Shown: piece after piece, positions 923 through 11,887 of the stretch | How the letters are laid out: the number at the start of each line of letters is the position of its first letter | Numbering within the stretch: the stretch's first letter is position 1 | Assembly (NCBI GenBank): GCA_026707045.1 | Contig: JAPOXO010000108.1 | Location: 27,003-75,545, forward strand | Origin: Gammaproteobacteria bacterium | Lineage (GTDB): Bacteria; Pseudomonadota; Gammaproteobacteria; Pseudomonadales; Azotimanducaceae | Direction of reading: 5' to 3' | Length of the DNA stretch: 48,543 nucleotides | Notes under the pieces: model-generated | What the model was told of the DNA's origin: nothing | Databases searched by the model: none | The model's input: only the letters and a program-made list of their open reading frames with translations | Position numbers and translations under genes: made by a program

Positions 923-3900
923 ATGCGACTACGATTAGGATCGCTTGCCGCGATTCTGGCTTCAGCCGCTCTCTTATGGACGGTGTCAGCGATGGCGCAA
1001 GAGGAGGAGAGCGATGAAGAGGAGGATGTTGATGCCGCCGCGGAGGCGGAAGACGAGGCGGAAGACGATGAAGAGATGGAGCAGATCTTTGTAACTGGAT
1101 CCGCCATTCGTCGAGACAATTTCGACACGCCTTCTCCGATGGACATCATCACCGAATTGGACATCCAGCTTGCTGGAACACCTGACTTGGGTGACATCAT
1201 TTTTGATCAAACCTATCAGGTAGGCGTGAACGCGAATGCTGCGCCGTTCGAGCACCCGACCGGACGTGCGGACGACCAGTCCGTGCAACGTGGCGTCGAA
1301 GTGTGGGCGAACATTCGCGGACTGGGCACCCGTGCCACCATGACGATGATGGACTCACACCGAGTTCCCGCCAACGTACAGGGCTACGGACCTGGAACGC
1401 GGCGTTCCGGTTCGGATGTCAATTCGTTGTATCCGGGAATTGCGATTGGTCGAGTCGAGACCATTCTTGATGGTGCTTCGGCTCTGTATGGATCCGAAGC
1501 CGTCTCTGGGGTCGTCAACGTGATTCCGCAAAAAAACTTCGACGGTTTCCGCGCCAACTATTCGACGCAACAGGCAATCGAAGGCGGCGCCCCATCCAAG
1601 TCGTTCGAACTCCTGGCCGGCGCGCAGAGCGAGAAGTCAAGCGCGATTTTCGCGATGGCAATTCGCGACGTAGACCGAATGGCCGCTACGGAACGACCTC
1701 AATTCATCATCTCGTCGGCCGGGTGGACTGGACAACTCCTGCCGACGTGGAGCGAAACAGGAACAAGCAATCCAGGCGATTGGAGAGTTCCATTCCGAGA
1801 CGAAAGTGGCGAGTTGGTACCGTGGACACCTTCCGGTTGGGCGCAGTTCCCGACGGGCACACCACTACCGGGATATCTCGCAAGTTCGCACCCTTGGTAT
1901 CTCTATCCAACGGGCGAACCGATTCGACTTCAAGTAGACGACTTTGACGGTGACGGGGTTCCCGACGTTGAGGAATTTACCTACGCTAGCACGACCATAG
2001 CGGACAACCAAGGCCGACTAAGAGTGCTTAGAAAAGTCGATCCGGGCTGTGGCTACGACTTCGGCGCTGGATACAACAGCTTGGACGGCGTGCGATTTGC
2101 CGCCGGGTCGGTCTCGGAATCCGGAGGTCTTGGATATACCGACACGACGAAGGTGGGCAACTTCCTAAACGAGTACCTGACAGGTAACGTCTGGGGACGC
2201 GAGACCCGTACCACCGGTGACGAGGCAGGGAGCCACGGATCGGAGTACGACTGTCGACGTATAACGACGGACTTTCAAGACATGCAGACTCCTCAGGATC
2301 GCGAGCAGGGCATGGCTTTCTTCGAGCACAGATTCAATGACTACGTTTCGTTCCACGGAGAGGTCACCATAAGCCGACTCGAAAGCCGGGGCCGACAAAA
2401 CGACTGGTTCGGGATCGACGAGTGGGGAGCCGCGGCAGGTGAAGACACGCTTAGTCCATTCATACCTTTCGCCATCGGTTCCAATCCGGGGAATCCCTTC
2501 CGAGCGTTTGCGGATGGATCAAACACCTGCGACTTGCTGCCGAACCTACCAGGTTGCGACGAGTTCACGAATGGCCGGTATTACACGTACATCGACGACA
2601 ACGGCACTCCGGACAATCCGGACGACGACATTGAAAGAACCATCGATATACACAACGAAACGGAACTTTCGTACATAGACGCAAATGGGAACGGGGTCTA
2701 CGACTATCTGCAAGAGGCCGGCGAGTGGCTTGTCTTCGCGCAGGATTCAAACGGCGACGGCCTTCCCGATCGCGACGTCGACGGCGACGGAGTTGCGGAA
2801 GACTGGGAACTCAACGACCGAACCGCACAGCACAGCGCTCAGAATCGAGTGCTACTGTTGCCGCTGGACAGCGATGTGGACGGCGATGGAATTCCCGACC
2901 GATTCGATCCGGACTCGCACGGAACGATAGGCGTGCGTCTGTTCGAGGACGCAAGACTGAATAACTTGGCTGCGCATCCAAAGCAGCCCTACGTTCATGA
3001 GAGCTATCCATGGCTGAACGGCGACATGAGCTTCGATCATCGTGCCCAGCTGAACGACATGCGGCTGCGACTTGGGGCCACTATCGAAATTCCAGATACG
3101 GAGTGGTACATCAATGCCGACTGGGTATGGGCTCTGAACAAGCGAGAGAATGACTGGCTAGAGCCGATTTGGCACTGGGCCGTCAACTCGTTTAGGTGTT
3201 CTGGCGGACGAGACGGCCAGCAGTGCTTCAATCCGTTCAGCACGAGTTGGTTGGCGTCGGATCCCGAGACGGGAGAGTTGCTGCCCCAGTGGCGCGACAA
3301 GGACGACCCGGCTTGGAACACGACGCTCGAGACAAGGAACGCGGGAATCATTCCGAGAACCGACCAGCGTCTCGTGGGATTTGTACTCGTGGACCTCATT
3401 GCATCGAACTCCAACCTGTTCAATCTACCGTGGAACAATGCGCCGGTGGGATTCGCAATTGGCATGCACCATCGAATCGAGTCGGAGGAATACCGACCCA
3501 ATCAGGTTGGTGCTGCATCATTGGGTTCCTCGATTGTGAGTTTCCAGTACACGGAGGAGCAAACCGACGCGGTGTTCACAGAATTCCGCTGGCCGATGAT
3601 TTCGAATCCGCGTTGGGGAGAAATGGAGGTTCAGACCGCAATCCGCTATGCAGAATTCACGGGACGAGGTTCCCTGTCAGCCACGGGTGAAACGGCGAAC
3701 TTCGATGTCACGATCCCCAAGTTTGCGATGAGCTACACGCCGAACGACAACCTGTCAATGCGCTTTAGCCGTACGGAAGGCTTTGTTCTGCCAGGAATGT
3801 TCCAGCTCTTCAATGTCACCGATGGTGAAGGTTCATCCGAGGAAACCATTCGCGACTACGTTTGCGACGGACTTCCGGAACTGCCTCAATGTGGAGGTGC

Positions 3901-5167
3901 CGGACCTGGAGGAGCAATCCAGGGTGTATTGGTAATACCAAACTCGGCAAATCGAAACTTGTCTGCGGAAGTTTCCGAACTGTGGAACACGGGCTTTACT
4001 TTCCGAATGTTCGACGACGACTTCAGAATGGACATCGACTATACGGATGTTGCGTTCAATGGAAGGGCGGAACGAATCGGAGCAGCCGCTGTGGTCAATC
4101 AGAACGAGGCGGGATTCGAGCAGTTCATCAAGGATCGATGCGGAATCGACACATTGATCGACTACGACAATGCGAACAAGTATCCGATCGACCAGTACCC
4201 CAACATTCCTCGTACGCCGCTGGACTACGTTGCCCAGACTCCGCTCGCGGAGCAGCAGTGTCGTCTTGCCGCCGTGGAGGAGTGGCTTTCGCAAGAGACC
4301 GCACTTTCGGGTGGAGTGATTGTCCGAGAAGACGGAAGACTTACACAGGCTTCGAACGCATGGATCAATCAGGGCGAATACCGAACTCGTACCCTTATAG
4401 CTCAGGGCGGGTACAGCTTTGATAGCGAAGAGATTCCGTTCATCGGTGGAAACTACGGCAACTTCAGCGCGAATTTCTCCGTGACGCGAATGCTTGAATT
4501 GAGCCTGACCAGATATGGGGCTGACTCCGGACATGGCTATGCAGGTCTCAATGTCGATGGTGTCGGAAACCGAAATGCTGTCGCATTTTGGGCAGGATCA
4601 GATCTTGCGACTCCTTTACCACCCACACCGGAATATCGAGTCAATCTTGGATTGCGTTGGTTCTCCGGACCGCATACGGCTCAACTTGGAGTTCGATGGC
4701 ACGACTCGCTGACAGATGTCAGTGCTGCCTACGACGAGATAACCGAATGGACCAAGTGCCGCGAGCGTCCCGATGGTTCCTACACACGGAACAACGGGGA
4801 CTTGTGCTCCGAAACGGAATACCTGACAGACCCCAACGGATGGAACAACAACGAGTTCAATGGAAGATCGGTGTTCAATGTTGATGACACGGACGACATT
4901 CCCAACTTCGTTTGGGATGAGTCGCAAGCCTGCATTGACCAGGACAGAAACCCCTATTGCAAGATCCCTTCGGGCGCGTATTGGGATTTCAGCTATACGT
5001 ATAGCCGTACCGGTTTCTTGGGCATGTCTTCGTTCTCGGTCAATGTTTCTATTCGAAACCTCCTTGATCACTATCCCACACCGATTCCATCAGGAGTTGG
5101 TTTTGAGGCGTATGTGGACAACGGAATGGGTCGATTGGGCTTTGCTCGAATATCGATGAACCTGTAG
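923..5167 (+). CDS. TonB-dependent outer-membrane receptor with acidic linker and calcium-loop-like repeats
   Basis: Large TonB-dependent receptor, 1414 residues, longer than the usual 700-1000. Signal peptide at residues 1-25 (ending AMA). Residues 27-53 are an acidic stretch, 19 of 27 Asp or Glu, followed by a TonB-box-like segment EQIFVTGS (53-60) and a plug domain with LDGASALYGSEAVSGVVN. The barrel ends with the typical RNLLDHYP motif, but the last residue is Leu rather than the usual aromatic. Within the predicted barrel, DxDxDG loops resembling thrombospondin type-3 or dockerin calcium sites occur at residues 340-348, 586-594, 608-627 and 649-664, probably in long extracellular loops. 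Many cysteines are present outside the signal peptide. Start ATG has AGGGGG upstream. It precedes two TPR/CRTAC1 pairs, suggesting a joint role. Substrate is unknown. Confidence 0.93.
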   Translation: MRLRLGSLAAILASAALLWTVSAMAQEEESDEEEDVDAAAEAEDEAEDDEEMEQIFVTGSAIRRDNFDTPSPMDIITELDIQLAGTPDLGDIIFDQTYQVGVNANAAPFEHPTGRADDQSVQRGVEVWANIRGLGTRATMTMMDSHRVPANVQGYGPGTRRSGSDVNSLYPGIAIGRVETILDGASALYGSEAVSGVVNVIPQKNFDGFRANYSTQQAIEGGAPSKSFELLAGAQSEKSSAIFAMAIRDVDRMAATERPQFIISSAGWTGQLLPTWSETGTSNPGDWRVPFRDESGELVPWTPSGWAQFPTGTPLPGYLASSHPWYLYPTGEPIRLQVDDFDGDGVPDVEEFTYASTTIADNQGRLRVLRKVDPGCGYDFGAGYNSLDGVRFAAGSVSESGGLGYTDTTKVGNFLNEYLTGNVWGRETRTTGDEAGSHGSEYDCRRITTDFQDMQTPQDREQGMAFFEHRFNDYVSFHGEVTISRLESRGRQNDWFGIDEWGAAAGEDTLSPFIPFAIGSNPGNPFRAFADGSNTCDLLPNLPGCDEFTNGRYYTYIDDNGTPDNPDDDIERTIDIHNETELSYIDANGNGVYDYLQEAGEWLVFAQDSNGDGLPDRDVDGDGVAEDWELNDRTAQHSAQNRVLLLPLDSDVDGDGIPDRFDPDSHGTIGVRLFEDARLNNLAAHPKQPYVHESYPWLNGDMSFDHRAQLNDMRLRLGATIEIPDTEWYINADWVWALNKRENDWLEPIWHWAVNSFRCSGGRDGQQCFNPFSTSWLASDPETGELLPQWRDKDDPAWNTTLETRNAGIIPRTDQRLVGFVLVDLIASNSNLFNLPWNNAPVGFAIGMHHRIESEEYRPNQVGAASLGSSIVSFQYTEEQTDAVFTEFRWPMISNPRWGEMEVQTAIRYAEFTGRGSLSATGETANFDVTIPKFAMSYTPNDNLSMRFSRTEGFVLPGMFQLFNVTDGEGSSEETIRDYVCDGLPELPQCGGAGPGGAIQGVLVIPNSANRNLSAEVSELWNTGFTFRMFDDDFRMDIDYTDVAFNGRAERIGAAAVVNQNEAGFEQFIKDRCGIDTLIDYDNANKYPIDQYPNIPRTPLDYVAQTPLAEQQCRLAAVEEWLSQETALSGGVIVREDGRLTQASNAWINQGEYRTRTLIAQGGYSFDSEEIPFIGGNYGNFSANFSVTRMLELSLTRYGADSGHGYAGLNVDGVGNRNAVAFWAGSDLATPLPPTPEYRVNLGLRWFSGPHTAQLGVRWHDSLTDVSAAYDEITEWTKCRERPDGSYTRNNGDLCSETEYLTDPNGWNNNEFNGRSVFNVDDTDDIPNFVWDESQACIDQDRNPYCKIPSGAYWDFSYTYSRTGFLGMSSFSVNVSIRNLLDHYPTPIPSGVGFEAYVDNGMGRLGFARISMNL

Positions 5168-5177
5168 CGTTAGATCA

Positions 5178-5198
5178 ATTCAGTCGAATAGACTGAAT
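5178..5198 (+). repeat. Inverted repeat just after the receptor stop codon
   Basis: Perfect 8-bp arms ATTCAGTC and GACTGAAT around a 5-base loop, 11 bases after the receptor stop. It sits immediately upstream of the main terminator and may protect the mRNA 3' end. No T-tract of its own. Confidence 0.5.
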
Positions 5199-5205
5199 CT
5201 TTTAA

Positions 5206-5245
5206 AGGTCCGGCACCGGACTGTTTCGGTGCCGGACTTTTTTAT
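5206..5245 (+). terminator. Rho-independent terminator of the receptor gene
   Basis: An 11-bp GC-rich stem, GTCCGGCACCG (5208-5218) with CGGTGCCGGAC (5227-5237), an 8-base loop and the T-rich run TTTTTTATT. It is a textbook intrinsic terminator. It separates the receptor transcript from the TPR/CRTAC1 genes, which therefore need their own promoter or read-through. Confidence 0.93.
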
Positions 5246-5288
5246 TCTTTGTATTTAATTCACATGAATCAGTCCAAGCTTATGCAAC

Positions 5289-5317
5289 TTGACCAATTCA
5301 ATCGTCGAACCGACAAT
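5289..5317 (+). promoter_or_regulatory. Weak candidate promoter for the first TPR/CRTAC1 pair
   Basis: TTGACC (5289-5294), 17-base spacer, GACAAT (5312-5317). The -35 is close to consensus but the -10 lacks its first T, so this is tentative. It lies after the terminator and before the TPR gene, where a promoter is expected. Confidence 0.25.
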
Positions 5318-5454
5318 TACGCATCTATTGGTGATTCGGTTGGGCTTGGGTTCAGTAGAGTTCTTGAGACTGCTGAGGTCCCGTCTTTTTCGCGCTAGAG
5401 TTGATCAGAGTCGTGACACATACAGATTGGTCCAAATGGACGGAACGGAGCGTA

Positions 5455-6867
5455 ATGTTTGCTCGGATTATGTTGCTGTGGTTGCTGTGCGCGATTGGCT
5501 GGTCATGCAGCAATCCGAATGATGAGTCCGACCTCATTGGCTTTGCGCACGTCCTAGATACGAGTCAGCTCGACTCAGAACTATCAGAAACAATTATTGA
5601 AACTATAGACCTCATAGAAAAGACACCGTACTCGGCTTCGTTACGTGGACGATTGGGGATGATCTACGAGGTAAACCACTTCCTCGAAGAGGCGAGAATC
5701 ATGTACGAACAAGCCTCGACTTTAGACCCAAGAGAATTTGCATGGTGGTATTTCGGTGCGTTGATTGACCAACAAAAAGGTGATATCGACAGGGCGCTGG
5801 AGAAAATTGACCAGGCAATTGACATCGATCATGGTTATGTACCGGTTCATCTGCATCGAGGAAATTGGTTGCTTCAACAGGACCGACTCTCGGAAGCTCT
5901 CGAAGCTTTTGGAGACGCGGCAGCACTTGGCGCAGGTTCTCCAGCAGCCGTGGGCATTGCACAGGTACACATTCGCAGAGAAGAATTCGAGGAAGCTGTG
6001 GACGTGTTGGTTCCATACTCTGAATCATTGCCCCATCCTCAAATCTGGAGGTTACTTGCTATCGCGTACGGCAGGCTAGGCATGGAATCTGAAGCAGAGG
6101 TTGCGAGAGCGCTAAGTAAAGAAACAACACCATTGCATTGGTTGGATCCTTTGCGTCAAAGACCCAACAGATACGTTCGTGGCTTCGGTAGACGCATTGT
6201 GTTCGCACAAAGCCTTTTGAGGGCGGATCGCTACAACGACGCGCTGCGCGAACTCGAGCGTTTGCTGGACATAGAGCCCAACGATGAAGCCTTGATCAGC
6301 AACCTGGCTGTGGTGTACGAGAAGACACAACAACCGGAAAAGGCAAAAGAGATTCTTGAAAGAGGAATTGATTTGATGCCGGAACAGTTTCGTTTCTATG
6401 TCCAGTTGGGAGATCTGATGTATCGAGGCGGACACAGTGAAGATGCTCTTGCTTTACTAACCCAAAGCACGAAAATCAACGAACGCAATCCCGGTGCCTA
6501 TGAACGATTGGGCTCAGTACTCATGCGACTGCAACGATTTGACGAGGCGATTGCGGCGTTCCACAACGCTATAGACTTCGGATATAGTGATGTGGCGGAA
6601 ATTCGTTTGCGCATTGGAACGATCTATGGATACCGGGAACAATGGCTGGAAGCAGTAAGCGAGTTTTCCCAAGTAGTTGAGTTGGATCCTGGAAACGCAA
6701 ATGGACATGTCTATCTTGCGCATGCGTTGATTGAAAAAGGTGAACTCGATCAAGCGGAAGCAGCATTGAAATGGGCTCGCAGGCTTAGGGTGAATCCTGA
6801 ACTGCTTCAACCACCCAGTCTACTCATCGAAGAACGGCGGAATCAGACAGATCCTAATTCGCCATGA
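5455..6867 (+). CDS. TPR-repeat lipoprotein, copy 1
   Basis: Tetratricopeptide-repeat protein, about 470 residues from ATG 5455. The start follows GGAG (5447-5450) and gives a short hydrophobic leader ending in Cys18-Ser19; upstream codons back to a TTG at 5401 would lengthen the leader unnaturally. The Cys context (GWSC) is a poor lipobox, so lipidation is likely rather than certain. The rest is a run of 34-residue helical repeats in two blocks around a central RYVRGFGRR segment. A clear paralogue lies at 8581, sharing RGRL.M.Y.VN, HPQI.RLLA.AY and GYR.QW. The stop overlaps the next ATG by four bases, so it is co-translated with the CRTAC1-like gene. TPRs usually bind proteins; the partner may be that neighbour. 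Specific function unknown. Confidence 0.85.
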   Translation: MFARIMLLWLLCAIGWSCSNPNDESDLIGFAHVLDTSQLDSELSETIIETIDLIEKTPYSASLRGRLGMIYEVNHFLEEARIMYEQASTLDPREFAWWYFGALIDQQKGDIDRALEKIDQAIDIDHGYVPVHLHRGNWLLQQDRLSEALEAFGDAAALGAGSPAAVGIAQVHIRREEFEEAVDVLVPYSESLPHPQIWRLLAIAYGRLGMESEAEVARALSKETTPLHWLDPLRQRPNRYVRGFGRRIVFAQSLLRADRYNDALRELERLLDIEPNDEALISNLAVVYEKTQQPEKAKEILERGIDLMPEQFRFYVQLGDLMYRGGHSEDALALLTQSTKINERNPGAYERLGSVLMRLQRFDEAIAAFHNAIDFGYSDVAEIRLRIGTIYGYREQWLEAVSEFSQVVELDPGNANGHVYLAHALIEKGELDQAEAALKWARRLRVNPELLQPPSLLIEERRNQTDPNSP

Positions 6868-8552
6868 GTCAATCCTACTTGAGCTTCATCCCAATGCTCT
6901 GGTCAGTCGTTTCTCTCTGGGGTTGCAGCGCCTCATTGGATCAATCGGAGAACGAACCTCGGATAGATGTTTGGTTCGTTGAAGAATCCGAATTAAGAGG
7001 GATTGACTTCGTTCATCAGTCGGGGCACCGTATAAAACACCTGTTACCAGAAATTACCGGTAGCGGAGTGGCATTGACCGATGTCAATGGAGACGGCTTG
7101 TTGGACATCTACCTTATTCAGAGTGGCTCACTTTTGGATGAGGACCGTGCGAATATAGGAGCTAACCAACTGTATTTGAACATAGGAGAAGGAAACTTTG
7201 AACTTCAGGAGGAAAGCGGCCTTGCAGACTACGGGTATGGGATGGGAGTGGCCGCTGGGGACTACGACAACGACGGAGACAACGACTTTTTCGTGACCAA
7301 CGTCGGCGAGAATAGGATGTTTAGGAATGACGGATCTGGTTCGTTCACAGATGTAACGAACGAGACTGGATTGGGTGACAATCTATGGGGCACTTCAGCG
7401 GCGTTTCTGGATCTGGACAAAGACGGGGACCTTGATCTCTACCACGCCAACTACCTTCACTGGACACTGGAAATCGAGTTGCCCTGCTTCGGAAGCGGAG
7501 TGGAGACGTATTGCCCACCTAACAACTACCAGTCTCCAGCAATAGATCGTATATTTCGAAACAATGGAGACGGGACGTTTACCGATGTCACCAGAAATGC
7601 TGGTATCACTACCGCATTTGGAAATGGGTTTGGTGTGATTGGAGCAGACTATGACGACAATGGATATGTGGATGTGTTTGTTGCCAACGACCTCACTGTT
7701 AATCAGTTGTGGATGAATCAAGGCGACTTTCGGTTTTTGAACGAAGCAATGTCTCGGGGCTCTGGAGTTGATGGATTTGGAACCATTAAAGCAGGCATGG
7801 GTGTTGCGTCGGCTGATCCAGATCAGGACGGTGATTTTGATATCTTGGTTGTGAACCTGACTGGTGAATCCGACTCTTTTTTTCGTAACGAAGGAACTCA
7901 CTTTACTGACTCCACAAGTGAAATCGGCCTGAGTGCACCAAGTCGGCGTTATACGAGATTTGGTGTTGTGATGGCTGATTTCGACAACGACGGCTGGTTG
8001 GACATCTATGAGGCGAACGGTGGCGTGAGCCCGGTAGATCTCGGAGCCGAGGACATTTATGCTGAACCCAACAGCCTGTATCGTGGTTTGGAAAACGGAC
8101 GCCTTGAGGAAGTTTTTCCACTGGGAGGAACAGTACAGTCTCTTGTACATACAAGTCGCGGGTTAGGAATAGGCGATTTAGACAACGATGGAGGATTGGA
8201 CTTGGTCGTTGTGAATCGCGACGCAAAAGCTTATGTGTTGATGAACCGTTTTTCCAGCCGTGGCAATTGGATTGCATTCTCGGTACTGTCGGAGCACGAG
8301 AGCGATGCAATTGGAGCGGTTGTCTCTCTTGTTCGCGACGGACGTCGTGTCTACGGGTCTGTTCAGCCGGAAGGTAGCTATCTCTCGTCCAACGATCCAC
8401 GAGTTCATTTTGGACTTGGTGCTGCAGCACGCGTGGAAGACGTGACAGTTTTGTGGCCCTCGGGCGAAGTTGAAACGTTCGGAGACTTCGCAAGCGGTGG
8501 TTACGAGGTCTTGAAGATGGGGAATGGAACTCCATCGGAATGGACGCGCTAA
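6864..8552 (+). CDS. CRTAC1-family FG-GAP/VCBS and UnbV-domain lipoprotein, copy 1
   Basis: 562-residue protein of the bacterial CRTAC1 type. A hydrophobic leader ends in LWGC with candidate lipidated Cys21 followed by Ser. The body holds FG-GAP/VCBS-like repeats with calcium-binding loops such as DVNGDGLLD, DYDNDGDND, DLDKDGDLD and DFDNDGWLD, predicting an integrin-alpha-like beta-propeller. The C-terminal ~90 residues carry the ASPIC/UnbV signature (SYLSSNDPRVHFGLG, VLWPSGEVE). The gene begins inside the upstream TPR stop (ATGA). Human CRTAC1 is extracellular, and bacterial members are usually secreted, but their biochemical role is not established. Ser after Cys suggests outer-membrane sorting. 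Paralogue at 10214. Confidence 0.9.
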   Translation: MSQSYLSFIPMLWSVVSLWGCSASLDQSENEPRIDVWFVEESELRGIDFVHQSGHRIKHLLPEITGSGVALTDVNGDGLLDIYLIQSGSLLDEDRANIGANQLYLNIGEGNFELQEESGLADYGYGMGVAAGDYDNDGDNDFFVTNVGENRMFRNDGSGSFTDVTNETGLGDNLWGTSAAFLDLDKDGDLDLYHANYLHWTLEIELPCFGSGVETYCPPNNYQSPAIDRIFRNNGDGTFTDVTRNAGITTAFGNGFGVIGADYDDNGYVDVFVANDLTVNQLWMNQGDFRFLNEAMSRGSGVDGFGTIKAGMGVASADPDQDGDFDILVVNLTGESDSFFRNEGTHFTDSTSEIGLSAPSRRYTRFGVVMADFDNDGWLDIYEANGGVSPVDLGAEDIYAEPNSLYRGLENGRLEEVFPLGGTVQSLVHTSRGLGIGDLDNDGGLDLVVVNRDAKAYVLMNRFSSRGNWIAFSVLSEHESDAIGAVVSLVRDGRRVYGSVQPEGSYLSSNDPRVHFGLGAAARVEDVTVLWPSGEVETFGDFASGGYEVLKMGNGTPSEWTR

Positions 8553-8580
8553 CTTAGATTTTTTGAGTGTGTCCTGAACT

Positions 8581-10113
8581 GTGAACAGTGCGTTTGAACA
8601 ATGTCGAAAAGTGGACGCTGGAAGGGCTTGTTATCAAAATGTCAAAGATCGAATCAGTCGCTCGGACAAGGAGAAAGTTGCAAGAGCGAAATCGATTACC
8701 AGAATCGTCATTGCAACACTGATTACGGCTCTTGCATGCATTTCATGTTCATCCCCAAGGGATTCCGTTGGGGTTGTGTTTCCCGAGACTGAAAATCCAA
8801 CTCTGCCTGACCTCACTGCAGTCGACGAGGAATTAGCAAGTTACATACGGACCCGACACGAGAAAGTAGAGCAATACCCAACATCTGGTTCCGAACGCGG
8901 ACGACTTGCTATGACCTATGACGTAAACAACTGGACTCGTCAGTCATTGCCGATTTACGAACAAGCTCAACAACTGGATCCCCACGAATTCATGTGGCCA
9001 TACTTCAGTGCACATCAGCACGCAAAATTGGGAGAATACGAACACGCTGTTGCAAAGCTCGAAGACGCGATCTCAATCGATCCGGAATATACGGCGGCTT
9101 GGTTGTGGTTGGGCTCTTGGCTACTGAGGTTGGATCAATTTGACGAAGCCGAGACGGCATTCGAAAGAGCTTTCTCAATAGACCAGAGTTTTTATGCCAT
9201 CATTGGAAAGGCTCGTGTAAAGCTCAGAAGCGGCAATTCGCAGGAAGCTATAGATTTGCTTGAACCTCTGCGAGTCAAAACATTGCATCCCCAAATCTTT
9301 CGGTTGCTTGCAAGCGCGTACGAAGATTTGAGACGCGCTAGTGAGGCGAAAGTTGCAAGAGCATTGGGTAAGCAAGATGCTGCGTTGAATTGGCCGGATT
9401 CAATAATGCTCCGTCGAGAAAAGCATATACGGGGATTCGGAGAGCGTTTGTCTCGAGCCCAACGATTGATTCAAGCCAATCGTCTTGAAGATTCGCTCAT
9501 AGAGCTTTCAGCATTGCGATTGAAATATGGAGAACGGCCTTCTTTGGTCAGTACATTGGCGTGGGTATATTCGTTGAAACGAGAAACGGATTTAGCTATT
9601 GAAACGCTGCAAATTGGAATAGAAGCAGATCCGAACCACCAGCCTTACTACACGCAATTAGGCGATTTGGTCAGCCTCACTGGCGCTTTAGGAACTGCAG
9701 AAGCACTCTTGCGGAAGAGTGTCGAGTTAAATTCATCTGATTCCGAAGCCTACTTGAGACTGGGGATTGTGTTAATGCAACAAGAACAGTTCGACGATGC
9801 AATAGATTCACTTAAAAATGTACTGGAACTTGGCTCTAGTTCCAATTCCATTTCAGAAGCTCACTTGCATCTGGGAACGATTGAAGGCTACAGGAAGCAG
9901 TGGGGCAAGGCTGCTGAGCACTTTAAGAAGACGATTGAACTGAATCCGCGCCACATCGCCGCACACGAAAGACTCTGCTATGTCTACATCGAAACGGGTC
10001 AGTTCGATGAACTGGAATCTGCTCTACGGTGGGCGAATCAATTGGCAATCCCGCCGGAAAATTTTGATCAGGTCATCGCGTACCGGGACGAAGTTCTTGC
10101 GCACTCCGAGTGA
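8581..10113 (+). CDS. TPR-repeat lipoprotein, copy 2
   Basis: Paralogue of the TPR protein at 5455, up to 510 residues. The frame opens at GTG 8581 without a good ribosome binding site; another GTG is at 8611. Either start leaves a charged N-terminal region of 30-40 residues before the hydrophobic segment (about 39-52), unusually long for a signal peptide. Lipidation could occur at Cys53 or at Cys56, which is followed by Ser; neither has an ideal lipobox. TPR units fill the rest, with the shared KHIRGFGER centre and a GYRKQW motif. It starts 28 bases after copy 1 of the CRTAC1 gene and is followed by copy 2. Function unknown; inferred to act with its CRTAC1 partner. Confidence 0.82.
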   Translation: MNSAFEQCRKVDAGRACYQNVKDRISRSDKEKVARAKSITRIVIATLITALACISCSSPRDSVGVVFPETENPTLPDLTAVDEELASYIRTRHEKVEQYPTSGSERGRLAMTYDVNNWTRQSLPIYEQAQQLDPHEFMWPYFSAHQHAKLGEYEHAVAKLEDAISIDPEYTAAWLWLGSWLLRLDQFDEAETAFERAFSIDQSFYAIIGKARVKLRSGNSQEAIDLLEPLRVKTLHPQIFRLLASAYEDLRRASEAKVARALGKQDAALNWPDSIMLRREKHIRGFGERLSRAQRLIQANRLEDSLIELSALRLKYGERPSLVSTLAWVYSLKRETDLAIETLQIGIEADPNHQPYYTQLGDLVSLTGALGTAEALLRKSVELNSSDSEAYLRLGIVLMQQEQFDDAIDSLKNVLELGSSSNSISEAHLHLGTIEGYRKQWGKAAEHFKKTIELNPRHIAAHERLCYVYIETGQFDELESALRWANQLAIPPENFDQVIAYRDEVLAHSE

Positions 10114-10213
10114 AACATAGGTGCTGATTCTGCGAGCATACGCGGCATTCATCCTTGGCCCTCGTTTTTCGGAAATCGTGCATTCCTAAGTAGGACTACT
10201 CTTCACAGTCGCC

Positions 10214-11887
10214 GTGTGCCCGAAATTACTTTGTCTCAGCGATTGGACAGCACGAGAAATTACGATCGTTCTTTTATTGGGCACAGGACTTGCCGCGTGT
10301 TCGACAGAAGATGGGGCTCCAAGCCAAAGTGAGGACGCATGGTTCATCGAGGAGTCATCTCAACGAGGAATCACTTTTGAGCATAACTCTGGTTTTCGCT
10401 CGATTCCGCTACTTCCCGAAATCAACGGTAGCGGAGTCGCTCTGGCTGATTTAAATGGGGATGGATGGTTAGACATCTATTTCGTACAAAGCGGCAGCCT
10501 CTACGAAGAGGAAGCAGGACAGTGGCACAACGAACTCTACTTCAACATGCATAACGGAAAATTCGAAAAGGCATCGATGACGAGCGGCGCGGGCGATTCC
10601 GGTTACGGCATGGGAGTGGCGGCGGGAGACTACGACAACGACGGAGACGTAGACCTGTACGTAACCAACGTTGGGCGAAATGTGTTGTTAGCCAACGACG
10701 GAACTGGTTCATTTCGTGATGTGTCAGCAGAGGCTGGTGTGGATGACTCCTCCTTTGGTGCGTCTGCAACATTTCAAGATTTTGACCAGGACGGCCATCT
10801 TGACTTGTTTGTTGCCAACTATGTCGACTGGACTAGAAACGCTGAAGTGGAGTGCTACGAAGGTGGTATTCGTTCCTATTGTCCACCAGCCCGATACGAT
10901 GCGCCCGCAGCCAACCTTATATACAAGAATAACGGTGACGGAACATTCAGCAATTCTTCAGAAGAAAGTGGAATTGGTGCGGAATTTGGCAATAGTTTCG
11001 GCGTGGTCAGCGCCGACTTCAATTCAGATGGCCTGATCGATTTGTATGTAGCCAATGACCGCACTCCCAATGAGCTCTGGATTAACCAAGGCGGGTTCAA
11101 ATTTGCAAACTTAGCCGAATCTTACGGAGTTGCGGCTGATGGTTTTGGTCAAGTCAAAGCCGGGATGGGAGTTACAACCAATGACTATGATCGGGATGGA
11201 GATTTTGACCTGCTGATTGTGAATCTAGTTGGAGAGACCGATACGTTCTTTCGAAACGACGGTACACACTTTGTGGATATCACTAACCAAACTGGATTGA
11301 ATACAAAAACCACCCGATATACACGATGGGGAGTCATTCTCCAGGACTTCAACAATGATGGATTGTTGGATCTGTATGTGGCAAACGGTGGAGTCTATCC
11401 CAGCGACTTGCGTTCGGGAGACATCTATGCTGAGCAAAACATACTTTTTGATGGTCTGTCGGATGGTTCATTTGTGCACGCACGAAAAGGGCCCGGATGG
11501 ATGCATACGAGCCGTGGATGCGCCGTGGGGGACGTAGACAACGACGGAGGATTGGACCTTGTGGTGGTAAACCGAGATGCACCTCCGTATTTGATGCTCA
11601 ACAGTGTCGAGAAACGAGGAAATTGGCTATCACTCGAGCTTAGAAATCAAATGGGAAGGAGTGCGCTGGGTGCAGTACTTTCCTATGCCATCGGTGGACA
11701 GACTCATTATTCAATGGTTTCTCGAGATGGGAGCTTCATGTCGTCGAGCGACGCACGAGTACATCTGGGACTCGGTGAAGAAAAACTCATTACAGAATTG
11801 GAAGTCCGTTGGTCCAACGGTCAAATTGAGCATCTCGGAGACTTTGCAGCTAACCAGTTCTTAGTGCTGCACCAGGACGAAGACTGA
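10214..11887 (+). CDS. CRTAC1-family FG-GAP/VCBS and UnbV-domain lipoprotein, copy 2
   Basis: 557-residue paralogue of the protein at 6864. It has the clearest lipobox of the four, LAAC with Cys29 followed by Ser30. Calcium-loop repeats include DLNGDGWLD, DYDNDGDVD, DFDQDGHLD, DYDRDGDFD and DFNNDGLLD. The C terminus has the UnbV signature (SFMSSSDARVHLGLG, VRWSNGQIE). Unlike the first pair, it is 100 bases away from its TPR partner and starts with GTG, so translational coupling is lost. A stretch of identical DNA (7260-7280 and 10628-10648), encoding DYDNDGD, is consistent with paralogy, though overall the copies have diverged well. It ends convergently with the flavoprotein gene, 24 bases away. 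Confidence 0.9.
   Translation: MCPKLLCLSDWTAREITIVLLLGTGLAACSTEDGAPSQSEDAWFIEESSQRGITFEHNSGFRSIPLLPEINGSGVALADLNGDGWLDIYFVQSGSLYEEEAGQWHNELYFNMHNGKFEKASMTSGAGDSGYGMGVAAGDYDNDGDVDLYVTNVGRNVLLANDGTGSFRDVSAEAGVDDSSFGASATFQDFDQDGHLDLFVANYVDWTRNAEVECYEGGIRSYCPPARYDAPAANLIYKNNGDGTFSNSSEESGIGAEFGNSFGVVSADFNSDGLIDLYVANDRTPNELWINQGGFKFANLAESYGVAADGFGQVKAGMGVTTNDYDRDGDFDLLIVNLVGETDTFFRNDGTHFVDITNQTGLNTKTTRYTRWGVILQDFNNDGLLDLYVANGGVYPSDLRSGDIYAEQNILFDGLSDGSFVHARKGPGWMHTSRGCAVGDVDNDGGLDLVVVNRDAPPYLMLNSVEKRGNWLSLELRNQMGRSALGAVLSYAIGGQTHYSMVSRDGSFMSSSDARVHLGLGEEKLITELEVRWSNGQIEHLGDFAANQFLVLHQDED

Follow-up and report, generated by a model that had tools for sequence, protein, structure and literature searches.

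We analyzed a 48,543-nucleotide stretch of contig JAPOXO010000108.1 (positions 27,003 to 75,545), here called the window, from a gammaproteobacterium of the family Azotimanducaceae whose 3.34-Mb draft genome (GCA_026707045.1) comprises 143 contigs. Our subject is a group of five genes on its forward strand, recognized from open reading frames (ORFs), Pfam matches, and, for two products, structural models. A giant TonB-dependent receptor (TBDR; 923..5167) is followed by a gene for a tetratricopeptide repeat (TPR) protein, TPR1 (5401..6867), and a gene for a CRTAC1-like protein, CRTAC1-1 (6864..8552), and then by a paralog of each, TPR2 (8581..10113) and CRTAC1-2 (10214..11887); all four smaller products are putative lipoproteins. 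The initial annotation had placed five genes here on a single strand, the four smaller ones as two paralogous pairs. An ORF check confirmed the genes and their coordinates, and the paralogy was borne out by 53% identity between the CRTAC1 copies (519 columns) and 39% between the TPR copies (459 columns). The receptor stop lies 233 bases from TPR1, TPR1 overlaps CRTAC1-1 by 4 bases, and gaps of 28 and 100 bases separate CRTAC1-1 from TPR2 and TPR2 from CRTAC1-2.

The receptor has 1,414 amino acids (aa; 156.5 kDa), and the other receptor frames that it matched within its own genome have 700 to 1,094 aa. It contains both the plug and the beta-barrel of a TBDR: the Plug domain (PF07715; 1121..1513, aa 67-197) scored 32.6 bits against a Pfam cutoff of 23.9, and the TonB_dep_Rec barrel (PF00593; aa 813-1291) scored 40.6 bits against a cutoff of 27. 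Ahead of the plug lies a TonB-box-like stretch (1079..1099, aa 53-59); an alignment of four receptors shows no variation at residues 53 and 57-60. Seven calcium-type Dx[DN]x[DN]G motifs, some overlapping, fall between aa 340 and 656.

Both TPR products matched TPR families above curated Pfam cutoffs. Both CRTAC1 products matched FG-GAP_3 and UnbV_ASPIC above theirs, as members of the CRTAC1/ASPIC-UnbV family do, and their Pfam tables held only these two families and FG-GAP. The UnbV_ASPIC domain occupies 8307..8489 (aa 482-542) in CRTAC1-1 and 11663..11863 (aa 484-550) in CRTAC1-2. The modeled fold of CRTAC1-1 is a propeller, with seven Dx[DN]x[DN]G motifs in its sequence; the VIA-align fold matches mostly span residues 34-467 and cover the C-terminal domain less. 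The AlphaFold model of TPR1 (pLDDT 92.4) is a helical TPR superhelix, and its best fold matches were OGT-type TPR domains. Among the NCBIfam models listed, no equivalog passed its cutoff for any of the five proteins, and the domain model TPR_END_plus passed for TPR1 and TPR2. Lipoprotein-like leaders had been ascribed to all four smaller products. We scanned proteins within 5 kb of a receptor with a general lipobox pattern rather than a prediction tool and read CRTAC1-2, just beyond that distance, by eye. The ascription holds for CRTAC1-2 (LAAC) and, on the loose pattern only, for CRTAC1-1 (LWGC) and TPR2 (ALAC), whereas TPR1 did not pass the scan. Family-wide, among proteins encoded no more than 5 kb from a TBDR, 40 of 54 CRTAC1 proteins carried a lipobox (24 strict, 16 loose), as did 45 of 65 TPR proteins (33 strict, 12 loose).

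The initial annotation had raised the possibility of an undescribed surface system and suggested a search for co-occurrence; within the family, this receptor clade is linked to TPR-CRTAC1 pairs far beyond chance. Genomes were searched with E-value thresholds of 1e-40 for the receptor clade and 1e-60 for window-type CRTAC1, and with two receptor and six CRTAC1 candidates scored per genome, copy numbers are lower bounds. The labels TPR, CRTAC1, and TBDR come from small profiles built on sequences gathered here, which weak members may escape, and the TBDR seeds stem partly from the same loci. The receptor clade was present in 32 of 206 family genomes (6 of 37 genera). Window-type CRTAC1 was present in 50, comprising all 32 with the receptor and 18 without it. 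In a class-level sample of 369 genomes the window's own genome alone matched the receptor clade, and in an order-level sample of 145 genomes the matches outside the genus (E 1e-20) were limited to the N-terminal plug part. We assembled 44 receptor loci (40 fetched by receptor, 2 from CRTAC1 matches, the window, and one from the same-genus genome G105). Thirty of these extend 5 kb or more downstream of the receptor; a TPR gene lay within 5 kb in 29 of them, a CRTAC1 gene in 28, and the two together in 27. In 19 of the 30, both nearest partner copies lay downstream on the same strand. G105-type loci are rearranged in order and strand, with one pair divergent upstream of the receptor. In the nearest relatives of the window, genomes G159 and G169, as in the window itself, the pair is doubled. 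Each window copy of CRTAC1 clusters in the CRTAC1 tree with the corresponding copy of G159 and G169, and the doubling is therefore older than these species.

In 14 of the 44 loci, the order was receptor, one extra gene, TPR, and CRTAC1, and in 13 of these (all except L164) the extra gene appeared by eye to encode one and the same secreted protein, about 250 aa long. This Cys-containing protein was seen by eye just downstream of the receptor in 19 listed loci of related genera (e.g., L142 6836-7774 and L160 2557-3339), and the two members tested had no Pfam match. The window, G159, and G169 lack its gene between receptor and TPR1, because the gap there is only 116 to 234 bases.

Receptors and partners also share a history. 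Distances among receptors correlated with those among the nearest CRTAC1 proteins (r = 0.72; 27 of the 44 loci), and none of 2,000 permutations gave a value as high. In four multi-locus genomes, the closest receptor and the closest CRTAC1 agreed on the locus in 26 of 27 comparisons, which are not independent, as all four genomes belong to one genus. In the tree of 78 CRTAC1 proteins (of 95 rows, retained by length and score; 18 labeled as edge), copies beside the receptor clade clustered together, with 11 label changes against a shuffled mean of 26.5 (0 of 500 as low); CRTAC1-2 of the window was labeled as receptor-free solely for its distance of 5,047 bases. A reverse test gave the same direction. 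Among 12 listed TPR-CRTAC1 pairs, each with its TPR gene directly upstream of CRTAC1, in four near-complete genomes (one to three contigs each), 7 lay within 2.2 kb of a TBDR, against a chance expectation of about 5% (179 plug matches in 19.7 Mb; binomial P = 5e-7). These 12 are the pairs listed, not a full census. Two window-type CRTAC1 frames, at L171 and L188, were dropped in overlap cleaning, and the CRTAC1 frame of L188 (genome G345), 1.8 kb from a TBDR with no TPR frame directly upstream, falls outside them.

Between receptor and TPR1, a sequence scan found a terminator-like hairpin of 17 pairs with a T-rich tail (5204..5241, forward strand). Of 37 receptor loci, 27 had a counterpart of at least 8 pairs no farther than 300 nucleotides from the stop codon of the receptor, compared with 6 of 740 shuffled stretches; the stem sequence varies from genus to genus. 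This position of the hairpin weakens the view of the five genes as one simple operon. The receptor may have a transcript of its own, or the hairpin may set a receptor-rich ratio of products. A promoter-like site at 5289-5317 carries no weight as evidence, such sites being fewer than in shuffled sequence (7 versus 9.8).

Because a giant receptor is consistently encoded beside two kinds of putative lipoprotein in this little-known bacterial group, the locus suggests an uncharacterized uptake machine akin to the nutrient-capture systems of gut Bacteroides, built from other parts. Our preferred reading, held tentatively as a real possibility, is that the five genes specify an uptake module of the outer membrane in which the receptor is served by outer-membrane lipoproteins. 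The CRTAC1-like protein, a calcium-type beta-propeller, would be the substrate-binding cap or capture protein, like BtuG or XusB; the TPR lipoprotein would scaffold it and dock it onto the enlarged receptor, which would import the captured ligand via TonB. The duplicated pairs may be two capture units, alternative or cooperating. Such a module presupposes that the partners are lipidated in this strain, reach the cell surface, and form a physical complex with the receptor.

The closest parallels are BtuB-BtuG, for vitamin B12 in Bacteroides, and the xenosiderophore system XusA-XusB. According to passages of PMC10404256 and PMC13142918, a seven-bladed propeller lipoprotein, located at the surface in the case of BtuG, sits in both on a TonB-dependent transporter. 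The propeller of XusB belongs to DUF4374, and those of the window to FG-GAP_3 with an ASPIC domain (UnbV_ASPIC). Unlike BtuBG, the module includes a TPR protein in most loci, has a receptor about twice as large, occurs in a host that is not a Bacteroidete, and is known here from genes and models. A propeller-fold putative lipoprotein encoded with a transporter is thus common to these systems, as a likeness of plan and not of descent; neither BtuG nor DUF4374 families appeared in the Pfam tables of CRTAC1-1 and CRTAC1-2. The SusC-SusD glycan transporters, too, combine an enlarged receptor with a lipoprotein of helical-repeat fold, SusD, whereas here the partner takes the form of a TPR superhelix and a CRTAC1 propeller is added. 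Neither TPR1 nor TPR2 had a SusD family in its Pfam table, and the 50 fold matches listed were other TPR proteins, which leaves room for a SusD likeness. In SusCD the enlarged receptor provides docking surfaces for lipoproteins, as a passage of PMC10404256 describes. A SusCD-like capture mechanism is plausible by analogy with BtuG and XusB. Lipoproteins are encoded with TBDRs in Proteobacteria as well, in the Slam-linked TbpAB, LbpAB, and HpuAB clusters, whose lipoprotein families differ from those here; 120 of 185 Slam clusters contained a TBDR in the portion available of PMC5449769. The vertebrate CRTAC1 (9etn) is an animal protein and gives no direct hint of a bacterial role.

Several observations weigh against the uptake module. 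The leader of TPR1 (GWSC) failed the lipobox scan, and the hairpin parts the receptor from its partner genes. Lipoprotein-capped TonB-dependent transporters seem exclusive to Bacteroidetes, according to a passage of PMC10404256. We had considered rapid divergence of the partners as a sign of surface exposure. Between the window and G159, identity was 94% for the receptor and 73 to 79% for the four partners, with synonymous divergence (dS) near saturation; on this comparison the receptor is strongly constrained, and the rate of change in the partners is unexceptional. The flanking proteins span 64 to 97%, so we dropped the argument and slightly lowered our confidence. In the CRTAC1 tree, moreover, receptor-free copies showed no clustering (10 label changes against a shuffled mean of 10.5; 210 of 500 shuffles as low). 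The other 5 of the 12 pairs in near-complete genomes had no TBDR within 5 kb (one, in G345, had one about 10 kb away). In genomes without the receptor clade, the pair often adjoined another type of TBDR (L179, L180, L190-L193, L195, and L196) and had none beside it at L181, L194, L197, and L198. We also surveyed CRTAC1 loci in many phyla, taking the best 80 of 576 loci and phylum labels from record titles. In 63 of the 80, a TPR gene lay no more than 4 kb from CRTAC1, and a TBDR-type gene did so in 11 of the 43 with enough flank: 8 of 16 in Acidobacteriota, 2 of 6 in gammaproteobacteria, and 1 of 4 unassigned, with none in Planctomycetota (0/7), Poribacteria (0/8), or Verrucomicrobia (0/2). 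Even the Acidobacteriota matches are best read as TBDR-like outer-membrane proteins. When nine TBDR seeds were run through Pfam, Plug was found in only three (L099, L060, and L062); the other six, all from Acidobacteriota, gave CarboxypepD_reg with OMP_b-brl_4 (four) or CarboxypepD_reg alone (two).

The initial annotation would have deemed the association chance if such pairs were usually receptor-free and no complex was predicted. On the first count, pairs are receptor-free in Planctomycetota, Poribacteria, and Verrucomicrobia (0 of 17), but not consistently in Acidobacteriota (8 of 16) or in the family of the window, where this receptor as a rule comes with the pair. We reject an obligate dependence of TPR-CRTAC1 on the receptor, given the receptor-free pairs. 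The basic job of the pair therefore need not involve a receptor, and a pair that occurs elsewhere without one must do something in its own right, for instance bind a ligand or serve as a scaffold, which the receptor would exploit. TPR-CRTAC1 is the more widespread unit, which unlike receptor types seem to have joined, perhaps in that order.

Three other explanations compete with the uptake module. It is rather unlikely, though worth serious weight, that both kinds of lipoprotein, TPR and CRTAC1, are oriented toward the periplasm, where they would accept or process ligand after import, or help to scaffold or assemble the receptor, instead of capturing substrate outside. TPR lipoproteins are usual in envelope assembly, and matches below the cutoff were seen to the NCBIfam models PilW, Tgl, NlpI, and LapB; other CRTAC1 proteins adjoin a Cytochrome_C554 match (L121) or ABC-transporter-like frames (L121, L041, and L007). 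No surface-export machinery came to light either, as SlipAM/Slam exporters matched in none of seven genomes in a search whose 14 controls also gave no match. Nothing speaks directly against a periplasmic role, but a large receptor with room for outer partners would suit a cap better, judging from a passage of PMC10404256. It is unlikely that the receptor and an independent TPR-CRTAC1 envelope module merely share regulation or a nutrient and never touch. Receptor-free pairs in many phyla, the hairpin between the two modules, and the changed order of G105-type loci would all fit such a separation; co-duplication (26/27) and joint retention (27/30 loci) argue for a closer bond. A chance neighborhood of three common envelope gene types is extremely improbable. 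TBDRs are indeed abundant (each of eight genomes gave 13 to 54 plug matches), but we reject chance adjacency on the family co-occurrence, the locus counts, the binomial result of the reverse test, and the co-duplication.

If the uptake module is correct, it would challenge the exclusivity of lipoprotein-capped transporters to Bacteroidetes that PMC10404256 proposes in the passage cited. The conserved receptor partner also makes the role of bacterial CRTAC1 directly testable. In open-licence literature, judged mostly from listings, we found no function for bacterial CRTAC1-like proteins and no paper on CRTAC1 structure; none joined CRTAC1, tetratricopeptide, and TonB-dependent, and UnbV met TonB only in paralog tables, in the excerpts available. 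In one such excerpt, a bacterial CRTAC1-like gene adjoined hydrazine-synthase-like genes.

Secreted Sel1-repeat proteins of about 210 to 280 aa were encoded within 8 kb of the receptor in 20 of 44 loci. A strict ad hoc pattern found a TonB-box-like motif past the signal peptide in 24 of 45 Sel1 proteins and 33 of 58 TBDR frames; among 607 other frames it matched 2, and among 45 shuffled Sel1 proteins 0.1 on average. By eye, 2 of the 24 matches were doubtful and several of the 21 misses were box-like. Sel1 relatives (E 1e-10) occurred in 38 of the 206 family genomes, including every genome with the receptor and none outside those with CRTAC1, so that the three sets nest perfectly (32 within 38 within 50); P values for such gene-set overlaps take no account of kinship. 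The scan found no Sel1 protein in the window and four matches in its genome, three of them consecutive on another contig (contig C3; L199 648-3243). Other Sel1 loci are L039, L142-L144, L158, L173, L175, L178, and L200-L205. A Sel1 gene is named among TBDR neighbors in one paper, with no link to a TonB box in the part available. One could speculate, doubtful as it is, that TonB transporters capped by lipoproteins also form a class outside Bacteroidota, with a calcium-type CRTAC1 propeller as lid, a TPR lipoprotein as arm, and small secreted Sel1 proteins with a TonB-box-like motif that would aid TonB engagement.

In Acidobacteriota loci L077, L083, L099, L122, and L137, CRTAC1-TPR genes adjoin CarboxypepD_reg outer-membrane proteins. 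A second CRTAC1 cluster (L121 4259-18062) encodes a TPR plus FG-GAP protein of 1,110 aa, the Cytochrome_C554 match, another CRTAC1, and an ABC-transporter-like frame; similar frames occur at L041/L042 (G105 contig C24) and L007 (contig C8 of the window's own genome). The genes tested in the rest of the window (16542-47941) appear ordinary: MreB, MreC, MreD, YhdP, two PmbA/TldD, RapZ, sigma-54, an ABC ATPase, an Na/Ca exchanger, EPSP synthase, a sulfate permease, an AFG1 ATPase, a PQQ dehydrogenase, a DNA alkylation repair protein, SMP-30, Band 7 and NfeD proteins, and SurE. Among these neighbors, nothing stood out as a clue to the substrate. In G105, a questin-oxidase-like gene that is absent from the window directly follows the last CRTAC1 gene (L038 16753-17733).

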